In this document: positions 3,718 through 13,341 of the stretch, piece by piece
Position numbering within the stretch: position 1 is the first letter of the stretch
How the letters are laid out: the number at the start of each line of letters is the position of its first letter
Source of the DNA: Methylophilaceae bacterium
GTDB lineage: Bacteria > Pseudomonadota > Gammaproteobacteria > Burkholderiales > Methylophilaceae
DNA: 44,323 bases
Assembly (NCBI GenBank): GCA_028244835.1
Contig: JAOKBJ010000006.1
Span: 1-44,323 of the forward strand
Direction: 5' to 3'
Made by a program: the position numbers and the translations under genes
The notes under the pieces: model-generated
Told to the model about the DNA's origin: nothing
Database searches by the model: none
Seen by the model: only the letters and a program-made list of their open reading frames with translations

Positions 3718-3793
3718 GACCCCATCGTCTAGAGGCCTAGGACACCTGGTTTTCATCCAGGCAACAGGGGTTCGACTCCCCTTGGGGTCGCCA
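3718..3793 (+). tRNA. tRNA-Glu(TTC)
   Basis: A full 76-base cloverleaf with encoded CCA. The acceptor arm GACCCCA (3718-3724) pairs with TGGGGTC (3783-3789), the discriminator is G and CCA follows at 3791-3793. The anticodon stem CCTGG/CCAGG encloses the loop TTTTCAT with anticodon TTC. The T-arm reads CAGGGGTTCGACTCCCCT. No intron or mismatch disturbs the arms. The lipid-modification operon starts 76 bases downstream. Confidence 0.97.
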
Positions 3794-3869: not shown

Positions 3870-4901
3870 ATGATTAGTTTTTTAATAACACTTGCTGAAA
3901 AAAAACTTATTCCTGATTTTTTAATTAGGCAAGGTATTAGAATCCTCCTAAAAAAAAGAATTCAATCTCTCGTATCAAATAATTCTGAAAAAAATATACA
4001 AAATAAAATTCAATTTATTAGAGAAATGAATTTATCATCCATTGCAGAAGTCCCTGAGTTAGCTAATAAACAACATTACGAAATTCCTGCAGAATTTTAT
4101 AACTATTCTTTAGGTAAACACAAAAAATATAGCTCTTGTTACTGGAATGAGAAAACAAAAAATCTAGGTGAAGCAGAGTTATTGTCTCTTAAGCTAACAT
4201 CTGAACATGCAAAGCTAACTAATGGTCTTAATGTCTTGGAGCTTGGCTGTGGATGGGGATCATTAACATTATGGATGGCAAATAAATTTCCTAAAAGTAA
4301 AATTACTGCAGTATCTAACTCAGCTTCACAAAGATTACACATACTAGAGCAGGCTAAAAAAAGAAAATTAAGAAATATTTCTGTGATTACAGAAGATATG
4401 AATAAATTTAACCCGAAAGATAGGTATGACCGAGTTGTTTCTATTGAAATGATAGAGCATATGAGGAATCATGGAAAATTATTTCAAAAAATAGCTTCTT
4501 GGCTTAAACCAGATGGGCTTTTTTTCATGCATATTTTTGCTCACAAAAGCCAACCTTACTTATTTGAAGCTCAAGAAGCTGATGACTGGATGAGTCAATA
4601 CTTTTTCTCTGGTGGCATGATGCCTTCAGAGGATTTACCATTATTCTTCCAAAAAGATTTAAAAATTATTGATCAATGGTCCTGGTCTGGGGTGCATTAT
4701 GAAAAGACAGCAAATGCATGGCTGAAAAATATAGATTTTAATGAAAATAAAGTTATGCCAGTATTAAAAGATATTTATGGAGAAGATGATTCAAAAAAAT
4801 GGTTCCAACGGTGGCGAATTTTCTTTATGTCTTGTGCTGAATTATGGGGTTACGATAATGGTAAAGAATGGAAGGTAGTTCACTACCTGTTCAAAAAATG
4901 A
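3870..4901 (+). CDS. Cfa-like SAM-dependent methyltransferase (short form)
   Basis: A 343-residue class I SAM methyltransferase of the cyclopropane-synthase/coclaurine-methyltransferase-like group (COG2230). Visible landmarks are the entry motif HYEIPAEFYNYSLG (69-82) followed by KYSSCYW, SAM motif I VLELGCGWGS (122-131), ITAVSNS after strand 2, EDMNKF, and VVSIEMIEHM (189-198). Compared with full Cfa enzymes it lacks most of the N-terminal lipid-binding domain. The likely substrate is an unsaturated acyl chain or another lipid-derived molecule; the product cannot be told from sequence. It is the first gene of a nine-gene lipid operon, and its last codon overlaps the next start (ATGA). No clear ribosome site precedes the ATG. 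Confidence 0.8.
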   Translation: MISFLITLAEKKLIPDFLIRQGIRILLKKRIQSLVSNNSEKNIQNKIQFIREMNLSSIAEVPELANKQHYEIPAEFYNYSLGKHKKYSSCYWNEKTKNLGEAELLSLKLTSEHAKLTNGLNVLELGCGWGSLTLWMANKFPKSKITAVSNSASQRLHILEQAKKRKLRNISVITEDMNKFNPKDRYDRVVSIEMIEHMRNHGKLFQKIASWLKPDGLFFMHIFAHKSQPYLFEAQEADDWMSQYFFSGGMMPSEDLPLFFQKDLKIIDQWSWSGVHYEKTANAWLKNIDFNENKVMPVLKDIYGEDDSKKWFQRWRIFFMSCAELWGYDNGKEWKVVHYLFKK

Positions 4902-5410
4902 CTTCCAAAATAATAAATTTTATATTCTTTCAATTAGTTTGGTTTGTTTGCATCATTGGAGCTGCAACCAATAATACTTTTGCTACTGTATTCCTATCAT
5001 TACTCATCATTTTATTTCATCTTTACATAACAAAAGATAAAAAAAGCGAGTTAAAAATTTTGTTATTAGCAAGCATAATTGGTTTCTTATTTGATGGCTT
5101 TCTTTTGAAGAGTGGTTTAGTTCTATATGCCGATCATGGATGGTCTTACTCTATAACTCCCTTATGGATTATCGTGTTATGGATGGGTTTCGCAATCACC
5201 CTTAATTCTAGTCTTAGCTGGTTAAAGAAAAAATTAAATCTATCTATACTTTTGGGTGCTATAGGTGGCCCATTAGCCTATTTAGCTGGAGAAAAACTTG
5301 GAGCAATTACACTTTTAACATCGGATGCATTGCTAGTAATAGCGACTGGGTGGGCACTCATTACTCCACTATTAATTTTCGTCTCTAGCAAAAATTCAAA
5401 AAATGCTTAG
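4898..5410 (+). CDS. DUF2878-like membrane protein
   Basis: A 170-residue protein with about five hydrophobic helices. The ATG at 4898 overlaps the TGA of the upstream gene (ATGA), so this start is chosen over a longer frame from 4868, which would add ten polar residues inside the previous gene. Features include a small loop with GFLFDGFLLKSGL, the aromatic YADHGWSYSITPLWIIVLWMGFA, and a GxxGG element (LGAIGGPLAYLAGEKLGA). These fit DUF2878, a family often found beside Cfa, DUF1365 and COG2907 genes. No biochemical function is known. Placement inside the operon suggests a role in modified-lipid metabolism at the inner membrane. Confidence 0.7.
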   Translation: MTSKIINFIFFQLVWFVCIIGAATNNTFATVFLSLLIILFHLYITKDKKSELKILLLASIIGFLFDGFLLKSGLVLYADHGWSYSITPLWIIVLWMGFAITLNSSLSWLKKKLNLSILLGAIGGPLAYLAGEKLGAITLLTSDALLVIATGWALITPLLIFVSSKNSKNA

Positions 5411-6164
5411 TCTCTATATTTTAATTACTTGCAACTTATTAGCTTTTGCTTTCTTAGGATGGGTAATAAGTCTATTTACTAAAAATGTAAATCTTGTAGA
5501 TTCAATGTGGAGCTTATTTTTCGTAGTCGCCAGTATTACCTGTCTAGTTTCTTTGGATACAAACTCGACCAGACATTTAGCAATAACTACAATGGTTTTA
5601 ATATGGGCTATTAGATTAACAACGCATCTAACTCAAAGGAACTGGGGTAAACCTGAAGATTCTCGCTATCAAGTTATTAGGAATAATAACGATCCTTATT
5701 TTAAGTATAAAAGTATTTATATAATTTTTGGTTTGCAAGCTATTTGGGCGGCTATAATCTCAGCCCCACTGATTGCATCATTTATAGATTTAAGGCCCTA
5801 TTCATTTTTGGATAAAATAGGCTTATTCGTAGTATTATTTGGTATTATTTACGAAACAATTGCAGATAAGCAATTAAAAAAATTCTTATCAAAGAAGTCT
5901 AACAAAGTTATGGATCAAGGCTTATGGCAATACTCTAGGCATCCTAATTATTTTGGTGAGTTTCTTGTTTGGTGGGGTTTTTATTTAATATCAATTGGGA
6001 GTGGGTATTGGTTTACTATAATCTCACCAATACTTATGAGTATATTGCTATTAAAAGTGTCAGGAGCTGAACTACTAGAGTCCACAATAGTCAATAGGAG
6101 GCCTGGTTATAAAAAGTACATTAAAAATACATCTGCTTTTTTTCCATGGCCTTCGAAAAAATAG
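5403..6164 (+). CDS. DUF1295 / steroid 5-alpha-reductase-like membrane protein
   Basis: A 253-residue polytopic protein of the DUF1295 family, related in fold to steroid reductases and isoprenylcysteine methyltransferases. It has VNLVDSMWSLFFVV in an early helix and the hallmark near the C-terminus, QGLWQYSRHPNYFGEFLVWWG, followed by FPWPSKK at the end. Families with this fold use NAD(P)H or SAM at the membrane, so reduction of an acyl-chain double bond is a plausible role but only an inference. It overlaps the upstream gene by 8 bases, which indicates translational coupling. Confidence 0.85.
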   Translation: MLSLYILITCNLLAFAFLGWVISLFTKNVNLVDSMWSLFFVVASITCLVSLDTNSTRHLAITTMVLIWAIRLTTHLTQRNWGKPEDSRYQVIRNNNDPYFKYKSIYIIFGLQAIWAAIISAPLIASFIDLRPYSFLDKIGLFVVLFGIIYETIADKQLKKFLSKKSNKVMDQGLWQYSRHPNYFGEFLVWWGFYLISIGSGYWFTIISPILMSILLLKVSGAELLESTIVNRRPGYKKYIKNTSAFFPWPSKK

Positions 6165-6194
6165 TTATTTATAAAAAAATGGAATTAATAAGAC

Positions 6195-6815
6195 ATGAAA
6201 TATAGCTTTATTCTAACTCTACTGCTCAGCTTTTTTTCTAATAATTTAATCTCTGAAGAATGGGGTTTCGATGTAATTTTAAATGATAAAATTATTGGAA
6301 AACATTCATTTAAGCAAGTGGGTAATGAGTCCCATAGCCTTGCAAAATTTAAATTTAAATTTATGCTAATGAGTTTTTCTTACGAACATGACAGTAAGGA
6401 AACATGGGATAAAGATTGTTTAAAATCAATTGTAAGCAACACTAATGATGATGGTGATCTCTTTGACGTTAGTGGAAGTAAAAGTAATGGTAACTTGAAA
6501 GTATCTTCAAATGGCATAGAAAAAATTCTGCCAGAATGTATTATGACTTTTGCTTATTGGAATCCCAAAATATTAGATCAAAAAAAATTAATGAACTCGC
6601 AGGATGCTGAATGGCTAGATGTTGCAATTGAAGATTTTGGTGTAGAAACAAAAAATGTTCGAGGCCAAGAAATTAATGCTCATCATTATACAATTCAAGC
6701 CAATAAAGATGGAAATGAAGTATTCATAATCGATGTATGGTATGACGACAATATGAGCTTAGTAGGTTTGAAATCACCAACACCTATTGGCAATCTTGTA
6801 TATAAACTTATTTAA
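6195..6815 (+). CDS. Secreted beta-rich protein, DUF6134/DUF3108-like
   Basis: A 206-residue protein with a cleavable signal peptide (MKYSFILTLLLSFFSNNLIS, then EEWGF). The mature part is beta-rich and starts with FDVILNDKIIGKHSFK, the sort of opening seen in DUF6134/DUF3108-type periplasmic proteins, which I suggest only tentatively. It contains two cysteines (in KDCL and PECI) that could pair. The C-terminus reads SPTPIGNLVYKLI. Function is unknown; the position directly before a lipocalin lipoprotein suggests an envelope role for the pathway's lipids. It starts 30 bases after the DUF1295 gene. Confidence 0.6.
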   Translation: MKYSFILTLLLSFFSNNLISEEWGFDVILNDKIIGKHSFKQVGNESHSLAKFKFKFMLMSFSYEHDSKETWDKDCLKSIVSNTNDDGDLFDVSGSKSNGNLKVSSNGIEKILPECIMTFAYWNPKILDQKKLMNSQDAEWLDVAIEDFGVETKNVRGQEINAHHYTIQANKDGNEVFIIDVWYDDNMSLVGLKSPTPIGNLVYKLI

Positions 6816-6828
6816 TAAATGGATATAA

Positions 6829-7344
6829 ATGACTATTATTAAAACATTTTTTTTAATTTTTTTAATTTTTGGATGCACAATGAATACAAACAAAATTGAC
6901 CTAGTTAAATCAGTTGATATTGATAAATTCATGGGTGATTGGTATGTCATTGCCAATATCCCGACATTTATTGAAAAAGATGCATTCAACGCAGTAGAAT
7001 CATACAAGCTGAACAATGATGGGACAATTGCTACGACATTTACATTCAATCAAGGCTCCTTTGATGGTCCATTAAAAACTTACAGGCCAAAAGGGTTTGT
7101 GATTCCTGAGTCAAATAATGCCTTATGGGGTATGCAGTTTATTTGGCCGATCAAAGCTCAATATAAAATTGTATATTTAGATGAAGATTATCAAACAACT
7201 ATTGTCGCAAGGGATGCTCTTGATTATGTGTGGCTGATGTCAAGAAAAAAAACGATTCCAAAACAGGAGTTAGATAGTCTTATCAATATGATTTCACTGA
7301 TGGGTTATGATAAAAATAAACTTCAACTCACTAAACATCGATGA
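6829..7344 (+). CDS. blc: Lipocalin lipoprotein (Blc-like)
   Basis: A 171-residue lipoprotein. The signal sequence ends in a lipobox (IFGC, Cys16). The mature protein begins with the lipocalin signature VDIDKFMGDWYVIANIPTF (G-x-W motif), followed by NNDGTIATTFTF, the PKGFV strand, MQFIWPIKAQYKIVYLD, ARDALDYVWLMSR, and a C-terminal helix, in the order of bacterial Blc. Blc binds fatty acids or lysophospholipids at the outer membrane. In this operon it could carry or scavenge modified acyl chains. The last bases overlap the desaturase start (ATGA). Confidence 0.88.
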   Translation: MTIIKTFFLIFLIFGCTMNTNKIDLVKSVDIDKFMGDWYVIANIPTFIEKDAFNAVESYKLNNDGTIATTFTFNQGSFDGPLKTYRPKGFVIPESNNALWGMQFIWPIKAQYKIVYLDEDYQTTIVARDALDYVWLMSRKKTIPKQELDSLINMISLMGYDKNKLQLTKHR

Positions 7345-8285
7345 ATATATCAATTAAAATACTCAAGTACTTTATTGGTTGGTTTGATAACGCAATCGTT
7401 GAAAAAAGCTATTTATCGAAGTCCTTCCATAACAAACAAATTGATTGGGCAAGAGCAATCCCCTACTTCTTAATTCATATCTCTATAATCTCTGTATTTT
7501 ATGTAGGATTTAGTAGCTTTGCACTATTAGTCTGCTTTTTAATGTTTACTATTCGGATGTTCGCAATAACCGGGTTTTATCATAGATATTTTTCTCATAA
7601 AACATTCAAAACTACCAGAGTTGCTCAATTTATCTTTGCTATTATTGGTGCTTCAGCGGTTCAAAGAGGGCCAATATGGTGGGCTGCTCATCATAGAGGG
7701 CATCATATGCATTCTGATACTGAAAAAGATCAGCACTCACCTAAGGCACATAGTTTTTTATGGAGTCATACAGGTTGGTTTTTAACAAAAGCTAACTTTA
7801 TAACTCATACTAAACTTGTAAAAGAATTATCGAGGTTTCCAGAATTAAGGTTGGTGGATAGATTTGATATTCTGGTCCCTATCTTTAGCTGTATCGGGCT
7901 GTTTTATTTTGGTGAATTTATTAATAATAAATATCCAGAACTTAATACAAACGGTCTTCAACTTCTAAGTTGGGGGTTTATTGTGTCAACGATATTTCTT
8001 TACCATGCTACTTTTCTCGTAAATTCTGTTGCTCATTTATGGGGAAAAAAAAGATACGCTACTAATGATTCAAGTCGAAATAATTTTTTTGTCGCTTTGA
8101 TAACATTTGGAGAGGGCTGGCATAATAATCATCATCATTTTCCCGGATCTGCAAGGCAAGGTTTTTACTGGTGGGAAATTGACTTAACCTACTACCTACT
8201 TAAACTCTTATCTTTGTTTGGGATTATTTGGGATATTAGAACTGTTTCAAACAATATTAGAGAGACTAATAAAATTAAACTCTAA
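7341..8285 (+). CDS. Membrane fatty acyl desaturase
   Basis: A 314-residue di-iron membrane desaturase. All three histidine boxes are present: HRYFSH (81-86), HHRGHH (117-122, box HRGHH) and HNNHH (260-264) in GEGWHNNHHHFPG. Four hydrophobic stretches flank them. The order and spacing match the acyl-CoA delta-9/stearoyl desaturase family (COG1398). It needs O2 and an electron donor, and no ferredoxin or reductase gene is nearby. It would introduce a double bond into an acyl chain, possibly supplying the substrate for the two Cfa-like methyltransferases or desaturating an already methylated chain. It overlaps the lipocalin gene by 4 bases. Confidence 0.92.
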   Translation: MNISIKILKYFIGWFDNAIVEKSYLSKSFHNKQIDWARAIPYFLIHISIISVFYVGFSSFALLVCFLMFTIRMFAITGFYHRYFSHKTFKTTRVAQFIFAIIGASAVQRGPIWWAAHHRGHHMHSDTEKDQHSPKAHSFLWSHTGWFLTKANFITHTKLVKELSRFPELRLVDRFDILVPIFSCIGLFYFGEFINNKYPELNTNGLQLLSWGFIVSTIFLYHATFLVNSVAHLWGKKRYATNDSSRNNFFVALITFGEGWHNNHHHFPGSARQGFYWWEIDLTYYLLKLLSLFGIIWDIRTVSNNIRETNKIKL

Positions 8286-8290
8286 AGTAT

Positions 8291-9532
8291 ATGAAAATTG
8301 CGATTGTGGGTTCAGGAATCTCGGGTAATAGTTTAGCTTATACCCTTTCAAAAGAGCACGATATTACCCTTTTCGAAAAAAATAATCGATTAGGTGGGCA
8401 TTCCCACACACATGAAATTATTAGTCAGGGCAAAAAAATAAATGTAGACACTGGTTTTATTGTGTTCAACAAAAAAACATACCCTCTATTTACAAAACTA
8501 TTAGACGAATTAAATGTTCATTATGAAAAAAGTGACATGAGCTTTAGTGTATTTTCAAAAGATAGAAACTTTGAATATAATGGCACCACACTAAATACCT
8601 TGTTTTCGCAAAGAAAGAATATCTTTAATTATAAATTCATAAAAATGATTTATGAAATTATAAAATTTAATAAAGTGGCGCTAACTTTACTATCGGCTAA
8701 AACTGAAATATCACTTGAAACCTTTTTAAGACAGAATAATTTTTCTGATTATTTTTGTAAAAACTATATCTTACCCATGGGCTCCGCAATCTGGTCATCA
8801 AATATTAATTCGATGCTTAAGTTTCCAGCAGTATTCTTTGTTAAATTTTTTAATAATCATGGCATGTTGAACATTAATGATAGACCACAATGGTTAACGG
8901 TAACTAATGGGTCCAAAGAGTACGTCGAAAAACTAACCGCTTCAATTAAAAAAAATATTAGATTGAGTTGTCCAGTTAAGGCTGTTAAGAGAAATAAGGA
9001 TTCAGTGGAAATAAAGAGCTCAAACGGTACTGAAATATTTGATTACATTTTTTTTGCATGCCATAGTGACGAAGCCCTAAAATTAATTATCGATCCATCA
9101 GCTCAGGAAAAAAAAGTTCTTTCATCAATTCCATACTCTAAAAATGAAGTAACGCTTCATACTGATGAATCAATAATGCCAAATAATAAATTAACTTGGG
9201 CGGCTTGGAATTATAATATTGACTCTACAAATGATATGCCAATTGCACTTACATATAATATGAATATTCTTCAGAATCTCAAAACACAACAAACTATATT
9301 AGTAACATTAAATGATAATGGAAATATAAATCCAAAAAAAGTTTTGAAGAAAATTAATTACGACCATCCTTTATTTTCTTTAAGATCAGTTGAGGCTCAA
9401 AAAAGCTACGGCATTATTTCAGGTGTGAATAGAACAGGATATGCAGGTGCATATTGGGGTAATGGCTTTCATGAAGACGGAATAAGTAGTGCATACAATG
9501 CAATTAAGTTCTTTAAAGAAGCTACCAAGTAA
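8291..9532 (+). CDS. FAD/NAD-binding amine-oxidase-like protein (COG2907)
   Basis: A 413-residue flavoprotein. The N-terminal dinucleotide-binding motif is IAIVGSGISG (GxGxxG, Gly7/9/12), with the acidic strand end ITLFEKNNRLGGHSHTH giving the typical GG-H signature of this family. WLTVTNGSKEYVEKL and the C-terminal GYAGAYWGNGFHEDGISSAYNA complete the FAD-binding features. COG2907 proteins are regularly paired with DUF1365 and Cfa genes, and the same domain is fused to cyclopropane synthase in plants. The exact reaction is unproven, probably an oxidation or reduction on an acyl chain. The TAA is followed directly by the next ATG. Confidence 0.85.
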   Translation: MKIAIVGSGISGNSLAYTLSKEHDITLFEKNNRLGGHSHTHEIISQGKKINVDTGFIVFNKKTYPLFTKLLDELNVHYEKSDMSFSVFSKDRNFEYNGTTLNTLFSQRKNIFNYKFIKMIYEIIKFNKVALTLLSAKTEISLETFLRQNNFSDYFCKNYILPMGSAIWSSNINSMLKFPAVFFVKFFNNHGMLNINDRPQWLTVTNGSKEYVEKLTASIKKNIRLSCPVKAVKRNKDSVEIKSSNGTEIFDYIFFACHSDEALKLIIDPSAQEKKVLSSIPYSKNEVTLHTDESIMPNNKLTWAAWNYNIDSTNDMPIALTYNMNILQNLKTQQTILVTLNDNGNINPKKVLKKINYDHPLFSLRSVEAQKSYGIISGVNRTGYAGAYWGNGFHEDGISSAYNAIKFFKEATK

Positions 9533-10270
9533 ATGCATTCAATATATAAGGGAGTTGTTACACATACTAGGCATCTTCCTAAAAAGCATCACTTTAAATA
9601 TTCAATCACCATGCTGTTTATTGACCTTGATCAGATTACTAACGCGTTTAAAAAAAATTTATTCTGGAGTTATAACAAAAATAATATAGGCTCAATAAAT
9701 AAATTAGATTATTACGCTAGTAAGAAGAAAGAGATAAAAAAATCTATTGTGGACTTAATTAAAAAAAGAATTGGTACTGAGGTTGATGGGAAAATATTTC
9801 TCCTAACAAATGGTAAATATTTTGGGTATTGTTTTAATCCTGTAAGTTTCTATTACTGCTTTAATAAATCACAAAAATTAATTGCTATTGTTTCACATAT
9901 CACAAACACGCCTTGGAATGAGAAGTATGCCTATGTTCATGATTGTAATGATATGAAAAGCGGTACGAAGATTTTTAACTTTGATAAAAAATTTCATGTG
10001 TCTCCATTTATGCCAATGGATATAAAATATAACTGGAAATTTACAGAACCAAAAGACTTTTTATACGTCTCAATGGACAGTTTTGAAAATAATAATTTTA
10101 ATTTTAATGCTACTTTAAGATTAACAAGAAAGGCATGGACGCCCTGGGCTTTAAATAAAATTCTGTTAATGTTTCCTCCAACAACTATTAGGACAATTTT
10201 GGCAATCTATTGGAATGCTTTTTTACTAGGCCTAAAAAGAATTCCTTTTTATCCGCACCCAAAAAAATGA
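9533..10270 (+). CDS. DUF1365 family protein
   Basis: A 245-residue protein with clear DUF1365 (COG3496) landmarks: the opening YKGVVTHTRHLPKKHHFKYS, then MLFIDLDQI, LTNGKYFGYCFNPVSFYYCF (about 88-107), and VSHITNTPWNEKYAY, with a hydrophobic C-terminal segment. The family has no proven activity but is nearly always found between a COG2907 flavoprotein and a Cfa-type enzyme, as here. It starts on the base after the previous stop and its TGA overlaps the next ATG, which suggests equal expression of the three partners. Confidence 0.88.
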   Translation: MHSIYKGVVTHTRHLPKKHHFKYSITMLFIDLDQITNAFKKNLFWSYNKNNIGSINKLDYYASKKKEIKKSIVDLIKKRIGTEVDGKIFLLTNGKYFGYCFNPVSFYYCFNKSQKLIAIVSHITNTPWNEKYAYVHDCNDMKSGTKIFNFDKKFHVSPFMPMDIKYNWKFTEPKDFLYVSMDSFENNNFNFNATLRLTRKAWTPWALNKILLMFPPTTIRTILAIYWNAFLLGLKRIPFYPHPKK

Positions 10271-11475
10271 AGAAACTCTCTAATTCAATATATAAAAGTA
10301 TCTTTTTTAATCAATTAAAAAAAATAAAGCATGGATCGATAACAGTAATTGATGACAAAAAAAAATATGTGTTTGGTCAAGGTGGAAAGCTTTCGAGCAC
10401 TATCTTTGTTAGGAATAATAGTTTTTACTTCGATGTTCTTATCGGTGGCTCTATAGGTGCAGCCGATTCTTTCATCGAAAATGCCTGGGAAACAAATAAC
10501 TTAACCAATGTTATTAGAATTATGGCTATAAATTCTGAACTAACAGAAAGTATTGAAAGCTCATTTAATTTAGTAGTTAGTCCTATTCTAAGATTTCTTC
10601 ATTATTTAAGACGTAATAATAAAAAAAATAGCCTTCAAAATATAGCTAAACATTACGATCTTAGTAATAATTTTTTTAGTGAGTTTTTAGATCCGACTAT
10701 GATGTACTCTTCCGCAATATATGATGGCAAAAATGATACATTAAATAATGCATCGATTAATAAACTTAAAATTATTTGTGAAAAATTAAAACTAAAAAAA
10801 ACAGATCATGTTATTGAAATTGGTACTGGTTGGGGCGGCTTTGCTATTTATGCTGCTACCCATTATGGTTGTAAGGTAACCACGACAACAATCTCAAAGC
10901 AGCAGTTCCTATATACTAAAAACAAAATTAATAAACTAAAACTAAACAAAAAAATTAAAGTTATTTTTAAAGATTATCGCGACCTTAAAGGAAGTTTTAA
11001 TAAGTTAGTTTCTATTGAAATGATTGAAGCTGTTGGGCATAAATATTATGATGAATACTTTGGAAAAGTTAATTCACTGTTAAAGGAAGATGGGATGGCT
11101 CTTATTCAAGCTATAACTATTAGAGATCAAAAATATCATGCTGCGCTAAAGTCTGTCGACTTTATACAAAAATATATCTTTCCCGGAAGTTGTATACCAT
11201 CTTTGAATATACTGCAAAATAGTATAACTAAATCTTCAGATCTGATTATCAAAGATGTTGAGGATATTGGAGACCACTATGCGACAACATTGATGCATTG
11301 GAGAGCAAACTTTATTAAAAATTTAAAACATATTGAAATTTTAGGGTTCGATAAAGAATTTATTCGCATGTGGCTTTATTACTTTGCTTACTGTGAAGGT
11401 GGCTTTAGAGAAAAAGTTATTAACGATGCACATATTTTATTAGCAAAACCAATGAATAGAGATAAAGACAAATAG
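10267..11475 (+). CDS. Cfa-type fatty acyl phospholipid methyltransferase
   Basis: A 402-residue full-length cyclopropane-fatty-acid-synthase family protein. The start at 10267 overlaps the upstream TGA (ATGA); a longer frame from 10210 would lie inside the DUF1365 gene. It has the lipid-binding N-terminal domain, HYDLSNNFF (129-137), motif I VIEIGTGWGG (182-191), VSIEMIEAVG (248-257) and DFIQKYIFPGS. Against E. coli Cfa, the Glu (254) and Tyr (338) of the bicarbonate site are kept, but the Cys is Ser149 and the His is Gln281. This matches the subfamily that travels with COG2907 and DUF1365. It may methylate or cyclopropanate an unsaturated phospholipid chain. Confidence 0.88.
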   Translation: MKKLSNSIYKSIFFNQLKKIKHGSITVIDDKKKYVFGQGGKLSSTIFVRNNSFYFDVLIGGSIGAADSFIENAWETNNLTNVIRIMAINSELTESIESSFNLVVSPILRFLHYLRRNNKKNSLQNIAKHYDLSNNFFSEFLDPTMMYSSAIYDGKNDTLNNASINKLKIICEKLKLKKTDHVIEIGTGWGGFAIYAATHYGCKVTTTTISKQQFLYTKNKINKLKLNKKIKVIFKDYRDLKGSFNKLVSIEMIEAVGHKYYDEYFGKVNSLLKEDGMALIQAITIRDQKYHAALKSVDFIQKYIFPGSCIPSLNILQNSITKSSDLIIKDVEDIGDHYATTLMHWRANFIKNLKHIEILGFDKEFIRMWLYYFAYCEGGFREKVINDAHILLAKPMNRDKDK

Positions 11476-13341
11476 GTGGGCATGGATTCAATTTCGAAAG
11501 CCAAAAAAAAAGAAAGAATGGGCGATATAGAGGGTGCCTTAGTCCTACTAAAAGAGGTATTGGTAAATAACCCAAATGATATTTCCACTCAAATTGAAAT
11601 TGCCAACCTATATGCGGCAAATAATAATTTTTTAGAAGCAGCTACATATTTTAGAAAATTACTTACCATGATGAATGGAAACGAAGACATAAGAGAAGGT
11701 TTATGCTTCTGTCTTAAAGAGATTGGAAATCAATATCAAGCTAGTAGAAAATACAAGTTAGCAAAAGATTGCTTTGAAGAATTACTCACTTACCACCCTA
11801 ACAATCCAGATTATTTATTTAACTATGGAAATGCTTTATTCGCTCTAAATCAATTTGATAAATCTATTGATGCATATCAAAGCTCAATAAAAAACAATTT
11901 AATCCAACCAGATGCAGATACGTTTAATAATTTAGGTAATGCTTATCGTCGCCTTGGTAAAAATGAAGATGCAATCAGATGCTACAAGCAAGCTCTAGAG
12001 ATAAATCCTGAATCAATTCACTCAAAAGTTGAACTAACACATTTAAAGCAACTTATCTGCGAATGGGAAAATATTGACACCTTATTTGATGATATCAAAA
12101 ATAATATTAGCAATAAAAGTAAGGGAAAGGTATCGCCATTTACAGTCCTATCAATGCCTAATTTTAATAGTAAAGATCATTTAAAAGTTGCTACAAATTG
12201 GTCTGAACAGATAAAAATAAAGCCACTTAGTAAGGTAAGTACTCCCATAAAAAATAAACTTACGATTGGCTATCTATCAGCTGACTTTAGAAATCACCCT
12301 CTCTATTACTTAATTTTTGATATATTAAAAAGCCATAATAAAAAGATGTTTAATATTAAGTTATTTTATTCAGGCCCAGATGAAGCCTCAAGTGAGCATG
12401 AAGAATTTAAAAAATTAGATTGCCAATTTATTAATATATCCAACGAAAGTGATTATAAAGGGGCACAACTAATAAGAGATGAAAAAGTTGATATATTGGT
12501 AGACTTATCAGGATTTACTCAAAACAGTAGGTCATTCATAGCTGCTTACAAACCTGCTCGGTATCATATAAATTGGCTTGGGTTTGCTGGAACAATGGGC
12601 TTTCATAATGCAAAACCACTTTTTGATTTTATTTTATCTGATAAATATATCATTCCTGATGACAAAATAAATGACTACGCTGAAAAGGTTTTATATCTTC
12701 CCCATTGCTACCAACCCAACATTGCGGACAGGCCCAAACTCACCTCCAAAACTAAAAGAGATTATGGATTTAACGAACATACTTTTATATACGCATCTTT
12801 TAGTCAGCCAATTAAAATTACTAAAAATCAATTTAATATATGGATAAAACTTCTAAAGAGCAGCCCTTCTGCAAATCTTTGGCTTCTAGATTCAAATAAT
12901 TTGTACAAAGAAAATTTATGGCTACATGCAAAACTTAATGGCATTGAAAAAAATAGAATTAAATTTGCCCCAAAGGTCTCAATTGAGGAGCATATAAATC
13001 GTCATCAAATTATTGATTTATTTTTAGATACATATCCATACAATGCACACACCTCCACAAGCGATGCGATATGGGCTGAGTGCCCTGTCCTGACTTTGTC
13101 AGGGCAAAGCTTTGCTAGTAGAGTTGCAGGAAGTATTTTAAAAGAAATTGATTGTGAAGAATTGATTACAAATGATAATGTCAAATATTATGACAAAGCT
13201 CTTGATTTATATAAAAATCCAAAAAGGCTTTTAAGAATTAAACAAAAAATTATCATAGGCAAAAAAAACTCGGCTCTATTTAAGCCTAATATATTCACTA
13301 CTAACTTAGAAAAAATCTATAGAGATTTATTTGCGAGTTGA
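11476..13341 (+). CDS. TPR / GT41 (SPINDLY, O-GlcNAc-transferase-like) glycosyltransferase
   Basis: A 621-residue protein. Residues about 1-190 carry TPR units (NNLGNAYRRLGKNEDAIRCY, ALEINPES). The rest is a GT41 domain: IGYLSADFRNHPLYYLIFDI with the N-lobe His, VDILVDLSGFTQNSR, PARYHINWLGFAGTMG, the SFSQPIKITK lysine region, and NAHTSTSDAIWAECPVLT, the UDP-sugar site. Such enzymes transfer a sugar to Ser/Thr/Asn of proteins in the cytoplasm. The start is either GTG 11476, right after the previous stop, or ATG 11482; GTG is listed. It follows the lipid genes with no gap, so it is co-transcribed although its job looks different. The 3' end overlaps the convergent EamA gene by 15 bases. Confidence 0.85.
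   Translation: MGMDSISKAKKKERMGDIEGALVLLKEVLVNNPNDISTQIEIANLYAANNNFLEAATYFRKLLTMMNGNEDIREGLCFCLKEIGNQYQASRKYKLAKDCFEELLTYHPNNPDYLFNYGNALFALNQFDKSIDAYQSSIKNNLIQPDADTFNNLGNAYRRLGKNEDAIRCYKQALEINPESIHSKVELTHLKQLICEWENIDTLFDDIKNNISNKSKGKVSPFTVLSMPNFNSKDHLKVATNWSEQIKIKPLSKVSTPIKNKLTIGYLSADFRNHPLYYLIFDILKSHNKKMFNIKLFYSGPDEASSEHEEFKKLDCQFINISNESDYKGAQLIRDEKVDILVDLSGFTQNSRSFIAAYKPARYHINWLGFAGTMGFHNAKPLFDFILSDKYIIPDDKINDYAEKVLYLPHCYQPNIADRPKLTSKTKRDYGFNEHTFIYASFSQPIKITKNQFNIWIKLLKSSPSANLWLLDSNNLYKENLWLHAKLNGIEKNRIKFAPKVSIEEHINRHQIIDLFLDTYPYNAHTSTSDAIWAECPVLTLSGQSFASRVAGSILKEIDCEELITNDNVKYYDKALDLYKNPKRLLRIKQKIIIGKKNSALFKPNIFTTNLEKIYRDLFAS

Follow-up and report, generated by a model that had tools for sequence, protein, structure and literature searches.

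A nine-gene operon in a Methylophilaceae genome predicted to make dimethyl furan fatty acids on phospholipid acyl chains

A 44,323-nucleotide stretch of a Methylophilaceae genome (assembly GCA_028244835.1, contig JAOKBJ010000006.1, positions 1 to 44,323; hereafter the window) carries nine genes in an operon whose probable products are dimethyl (tetra-substituted) furan fatty acids, formed on phospholipid acyl chains already in place. Based on orthology and gene order, a furan product is highly probable and the dimethyl form of it is likely. Furan fatty acids are natural antioxidants, and the core chemistry of their synthesis is already known from photosynthetic bacteria. The initial annotation of the window had proposed a membrane pathway yielding a methylated, cyclopropanated or furan-type acyl chain; orthology to UfaD, UfaO and UfaM and the order of their genes (D-O-M) support the furan type.

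In the portions of Lemke 2020 (PMC7380195) drawn on here, cis-vaccenate in phospholipids is methylated by UfaM, UfaD (an NAD/FAD-binding, phytoene-desaturase-like protein) yields a conjugated methyl-diene, and UfaO (DUF1365) forms the furan 9M5-FuFA using O2. FufM (RPA0924) converts 9M5-FuFA to the dimethyl 9D5-FuFA, both in vivo and in vitro (same source). Genes 7, 8 and 9 of the operon stand in the D-O-M order of the Rhodopseudomonas palustris core genes, RPA2571 (D), RPA2570 (O) and RPA2569 (M) in that paper. Their products match those of a putative Rhodopseudomonas D-O-M operon at 38% identity over 413 columns for UfaD (1.8e-104), 27% for UfaO (1.8e-34) and 34% for UfaM (1.6e-90). The product of the first gene (MT1) aligns over its full length (342 columns) with the protein of the FufM locus in a putative Rhodopseudomonas genome, at 47% identity; the genome was assigned from locus spacing and gene order, and the comparison is with this protein rather than the RPA0924 record. 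In four such genomes the D-O-M genes lie together and a DUF1295 gene adjoins the FufM-type gene elsewhere; in one genome of this putative genus the FufM-type and D-O-M loci are at 1.04 and 2.88 Mb, a spacing in keeping with the locus numbers RPA0924 and RPA2569. A UfaM from Halomonas, encoded in an unbroken run with ufaD and ufaO, forms the methylated intermediate in Escherichia coli.

The pathway steps are known in Rhodobacter sphaeroides and R. palustris and are transferred to the host of the window by orthology. UfaM would methylate a cis-monounsaturated acyl chain, UfaD, with FAD, would turn the branched chain by desaturation into a conjugated methyl-diene, UfaO would close the furan ring by inserting one O2-derived oxygen, and the FufM-type product of the first gene would add the second ring methyl. 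The SCD1-like desaturase may supply extra unsaturated chains dedicated to this route, DUF1295 would be an NADPH-type membrane reductase acting with the dimethyl furan or its oxidation product, and DUF6134 and the lipocalin may carry modified or oxidised lipids between the inner and outer membranes. The product would shield the membranes of rhodopsin-bearing Methylophilaceae against reactive oxygen. The genome of the window has two adjacent rhodopsin genes, and paired rhodopsin genes have been described in print for 'Candidatus Methylopumilus'.

The operon consists of nine consecutive open reading frames (ORFs) on the plus strand at 3870-11475, and the Pfam search assigned a family to all nine proteins (Table 1), which confirms the operon structure and short junctions initially described and identifies the protein then called secreted and beta-rich as DUF6134. 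From the first junction to the eighth, the genes are separated by an overlap of 34 (or 4) bases, an overlap of 8, gaps of 30 and 13, an overlap of 4, gaps of 5 and 0, and an overlap of 4. The two values for the first junction reflect the DUF2878 ORF, which is open from 4868; an alternative in-frame ATG at 4898 gives a 4-base overlap (ATGA) with the first gene and is the likelier start. The operon is real and conserved rather than a chance arrangement, since an identical succession of protein families is seen again in further bacterial families and phyla. Among the named strains, Pseudomethylobacillus aquaticus H-5, Methylophilus sp. QUAN and Hylemonella gracilis ATCC 19624 are examples that carry the genes in the full order. 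The genome to which the window belongs, as contig 13, measures 1.08 Mb (81% complete), and the named relatives of its genus are Methylophilaceae. MT1 is 69% identical to a protein of a Methylophilaceae metagenome-assembled genome in one named scan, which perhaps left out the window's own genome.

Table 1 Features of the operon and its immediate neighbours in the window
Feature	Position	Strand	Evidence or predicted role
tRNA-Glu(ttc)	3718..3793	+	ARAGORN; upstream neighbour of the operon, outside the pathway
fufM-like S-adenosylmethionine (SAM) methyltransferase (MT1), CMAS-type in Pfam	3870..4901	+	predicted methylation of monomethyl to dimethyl furan acyl chain
DUF2878 small membrane protein	4898..5410	+	Pfam 1.2e-40
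DUF1295 membrane protein, putative steroid-reductase/ICMT fold	5403..6164	+	predicted NADPH-dependent ene-reductase, FufM partner
DUF6134 exported beta-barrel-like protein	6195..6815	+	Pfam; predicted periplasmic lipid carrier
Blc-like lipocalin	6829..7344	+	Lipocalin_2 6.8e-35; Blc family 1.5e-19 (below cut-off); Cys behind hydrophobic leader
SCD1/DesA-like membrane fatty-acyl desaturase	7341..8285	+	PF00487 (FA_desaturase) 2.5e-17
ufaD, flavoprotein desaturase of methyl-branched acyl chains	8291..9532	+	Amino_oxidase/NAD_binding_8; UfaD match
ufaO, DUF1365, O2-inserting furan-forming protein	9533..10270	+	PF07103 4e-72; UfaO match
ufaM, SAM methylase of unsaturated phospholipid acyl chains	10267..11475	+	CMAS; UfaM match
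GT41/TPR gene (O-GlcNAc-transferase-like)	11476-13341		starts 0 bases after ufaM; tenth gene

The distribution of these genes was followed in a chosen set of 80 genome loci of the order, a separate set of 80 named MT1 loci, and a survey of 300 genomes of the order. Among the chosen loci, 44 have only markers of the window type (FufM-type, DUF1295 or desaturase), 32 have only SDR, NTF2, CHI or DUF3833 markers, three have both kinds (the second being SDR alone) and one has neither. Among genomes of the genus, five complete ones have a FufM-type-DUF2878-DUF1295 set (with a DUF6134 match) that lies separate from a lipocalin-desaturase-D-O-M set, suggesting two modules that occur joined or apart. 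The modules are arranged as lipocalin-desaturase-D-O-M-DUF1295-FufM-type on an Acinetobacter plasmid, and as ECF-desaturase-D-O-M-DUF2878-DUF1295-MT1 in Xanthomonas loci, where ECF is an extracytoplasmic function gene. DUF2878 has a profile match in 51 of the 80 named MT1 loci.

The three-His-box desaturase of the initial annotation is SCD1/DesA-like: it matches the SCD1 structure 4ymk (6.6e-43), and the SCD1-type pattern of nine His and one Asn is invariant in 26 of 26 aligned desaturases. As a candidate for the UfaD of the furan pathway it was rejected, since UfaD is a flavoprotein in the known pathway. Whether it supplies precursors to the pathway is an even call. It could instead be a cold- or fluidity-response enzyme that hitch-hikes in the operon, unlinked to furan synthesis; its resemblance to standard SCD1/DesA-type enzymes is in keeping with this, and clusters that lack both desaturase and MT1 occur at 33 of the 80 chosen loci, indicating that furan synthesis does not need it. 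We consider hitch-hiking unlikely, however, because the desaturase gene adjoins ufaD in the listed window-type loci that have one, an order kept also in Planctomycetes, Opitutae and Xanthomonas, and a lipocalin is present in 44 of 45 desaturase loci. In the genome, which is 81% complete, PF00487 matches this protein alone. FabA scores above its cut-off in 19 of the 23 genomes of the genus, the window's own among them. The desaturase is thus not needed for bulk unsaturation and may be dedicated to the furan route.

The prediction of a dimethyl product rests on MT1, whose 47% identity to the FufM-locus protein marks it as FufM-like. FufM (RPA0924) is itself 26% identical to R. sphaeroides UfaM (PMC7380195, in part) and shares 37.9% identity with LIME1, a methyltransferase from plants; MT1 and the operon's own UfaM are 28% identical over 261 columns. 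If the product stopped at a monomethyl furan, the FufM-type enzyme and DUF1295 would modify another lipid, a quinone or an amine. MT1 and DUF1295 do lie away from D-O-M in some genomes (18 of the 80 named loci have no UfaD, UfaO or UfaM within 9 kb), and the best relatives of MT1 among solved structures are N-methyltransferases. This alternative is nonetheless improbable, given that the closest known function is that of FufM, with the same DUF1295 neighbour, and that DUF1365, present in 145 of the 300 surveyed genomes, is found in all 29 that carry MT1. All of UfaD, UfaO and UfaM lie within 9 kb in 52 of the 80 named MT1 loci.

The initial annotation also described two Cfa-like methyltransferases. 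Both do match the CMAS family; the first is of FufM type, and the second falls in a UfaM clade apart from Cfa. The tree comprised 48 rows (38 UfaD/UfaO-linked methylases, 5 stand-alone Cfa-type enzymes and 5 MT1 proteins, with R. sphaeroides UfaM not among them). One clade (support 100/99) unites all 38 D-O-M-linked methylases, including the UfaM of the window, and the five MT1 rows, including the FufM-locus protein, form their own clade (100/100); E. coli Cfa and the four other stand-alone Cfa-type rows, one of them long-branched, lie outside the UfaM clade. A Cfa function for the first gene is unlikely given its place in the FufM-type clade and its best solved relatives, which are coclaurine (6gkv, 1.8e-73) and pavine N-methyltransferases; the top-scoring Cfa synthase, 6bqc, trails well behind at 7e-29. 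At the Cfa bicarbonate site (C139, E239, H266, I268 and Y317 in E. coli numbering; PMC3132707), the UfaM of the window has S, E, Q, I and Y and MT1 has S, E, H, F and Y, so neither shows the Cfa pattern. Gln occupies the His266 site in 38 of 38 D-O-M-linked UfaM proteins, whereas His is found in five of five stand-alone Cfa-type enzymes. Cotton synthases with Gln at this site produce cyclopropanes, and Gln therefore serves as a clade marker separating UfaM-type proteins from bacterial Cfa in annotation, not as proof of product. A reading of both methyltransferases as cyclopropane or methyl-branch synthases, with the flavoprotein, DUF1365 and the desaturase only tuning unsaturation, can draw on the shared CMAS match, the cotton enzymes and the CFA synthase labels given to both proteins in a Stenotrophomonas maltophilia cluster (PMC11832516, in part), but is very improbable given the separate clades and the distance of MT1 from Cfa. 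To our knowledge, UfaD and UfaO have no role in cyclopropane synthesis, which also counts against it.

In the dimethyl furan pathway, DUF1295 is the closest companion of MT1: it lies within 1 kb of MT1 in 29 of 29 MT1-bearing genomes of the 300 surveyed, where DUF1295 is present in 32, and in 62 of the 80 named MT1 loci. One of the 29 DUF1295 genes beside the FufM-type gene is broken, matched as two pieces with a stop. The chances that DUF1295 is a reductase are about equal either way, and the same balance applies to lipid-carrier roles for DUF6134 and the lipocalin; the latter is a probable outer-membrane lipoprotein. Oxidation of a furan ring opens it to an ene-dione, and in Paal-Knorr chemistry a 1,4-dione loses water to give a furan. 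In a possible repair cycle, a furan chain oxidised, for example, by singlet oxygen would become an ene-dione. DUF1295, as a putative NADPH enzyme of the steroid-5-alpha-reductase fold, a class whose members reduce a C=C bond adjacent to a carbonyl, would turn it into a 1,4-dione, and loss of water would regenerate the furan; DUF6134 and the lipocalin would shuttle used and renewed lipid from one membrane to the other. A repair role would fit DUF1295 better than one in synthesis, because the pairing with FufM is tight even though FufM worked in vitro without DUF1295. That DUF1295 thus closes a redox cycle and makes the furan lipid a renewable antioxidant is, however, a long shot.

For the stress role of the operon, we infer a link to singlet oxygen. 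The initial annotation saw no ChrR in the window, and this extends to the genus: ChrR (TIGR02451, E 0.001) had no match in any of the 23 genomes searched, a set that includes the window's own (81% complete) and other incomplete ones, so control probably differs here. The available portions of a 2025 study of S. maltophilia (PMC11832516) describe a nine-gene cluster, smlt2375-smlt2367, that is controlled by RpoE-ChrR and whose induction on mutation of chrR is 165- to 697-fold. In the chrR mutant the cluster is needed for raised tolerance of menadione (superoxide) and for ceftazidime susceptibility, and its deletion from the wild type altered neither. Activation of the sigma factor altered superoxide tolerance in S. 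maltophilia but left tolerance of singlet oxygen and peroxide unchanged, a result that weakens the singlet-oxygen link.

Several neighbouring genes were recorded alongside the operon. A GT41/TPR gene follows UfaM in the same orientation in 28 of 28 strong-match loci (window counted), at a distance of at most 60 bases in 9 and 1.2-3.1 kb in the other 19. Upstream, a second gene for a long TPR protein is located on the minus strand at 520-2559, and a tRNA-Glu precedes MT1 in 9 of 56 scanned upstream regions, window counted. In seven loci a photolyase or cryptochrome gene sits on the upstream side of the FufM-type gene in divergent orientation, pointing to a light-stress neighbourhood. Four Methylophilaceae loci have a second UfaD-profile ORF after UfaM. 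Plasmid pRL12 of Rhizobium johnstonii 3841 combines UfaD, FufM-type and DUF1295 genes with rpoE-chrR, TspO, FolE and a lipocalin; at this locus a UfaM profile match coincides with a gene annotated as a short hypothetical protein, and no DUF1365 is annotated or matched by profile.

If the dimethyl furan pathway is correct, a likely aquatic source of dimethyl furan acids is the genome-streamlined pelagic Methylophilaceae, a point relevant to the origin of the furan acids that have been reported in fish and copepods. The pathway would also single out DUF1295, with its putative steroid-reductase fold, as an unstudied furan-lipid protein, and the published S. maltophilia stress cluster, there assigned cyclopropane chemistry, would be re-read as a furan-lipid operon.

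Among known systems, that of R. palustris CGA009 is similar in its four pathway enzymes and D-O-M order and differs in that fufM (RPA0924) is far from D-O-M (RPA2571-2569), according to the parts of PMC7380195 used here. In the four putative Rhodopseudomonas genomes DUF1295 is directly beside FufM, where RPA0923 would be, and the 20-kb stretches around either locus gave no profile match to the desaturase, lipocalin, DUF2878 or DUF6134. An R. palustris strain deleted for RPA0923 appears among those of the same paper. R. sphaeroides shares UfaM (RSP2144), UfaD and UfaO, with RSP1091-1087 in the RpoE-ChrR regulon; it differs in the unlinked ufaM, in ChrR control and in the reported product, monomethyl furan only.

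The S. maltophilia cluster is apparently the same system as the operon, judging from its annotation and from Xanthomonas loci. The available part of PMC11832516 tabulates a periplasmic protein, a desaturase, an FAD oxidoreductase, a cytosolic protein, Cfa, two inner-membrane proteins, Cfa and a lipocalin. Five of these nine match window families by published annotation; the other four, termed hypothetical, are equated from the Xanthomonas order, and the Xanthomonas loci with matching order behind an ECF gene support the equivalence. The cluster differs in gene order, in its divergent rpoE-chrR-chrA genes and in the cyclopropane-type modification proposed by its authors. The initial suggestion that the set may be an undescribed variant holds only in part, since a nine-gene cluster in print makes the gene set less novel; furans have no mention in the available main text of that paper.

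The clusters with SDR, NTF2-like, chalcone isomerase-like and DUF3833 genes, found in Burkholderiales genomes, Pseudoalteromonas and Salinivibrio, share the D-O-M core and sometimes DUF2878 and photolyase, and differ in the absence of FufM-type, DUF1295 and desaturase genes (32 of the 80 chosen loci). Aeromonas salmonicida has a similar set (PMC10012899), and the COG2907 label is used in print for the gene at the corresponding place in an Aeromonas cluster. In plants, homologues of the four enzymes are AtUFAMD1 (AT3G23510), AtUFAO1 (AT1G30130) and LIME1/AtFUFM1 (AT4G33110), located on lipid droplets; the plant system differs in that one protein carries both UfaM and UfaD similarity (PMC10940516, in the portion consulted).

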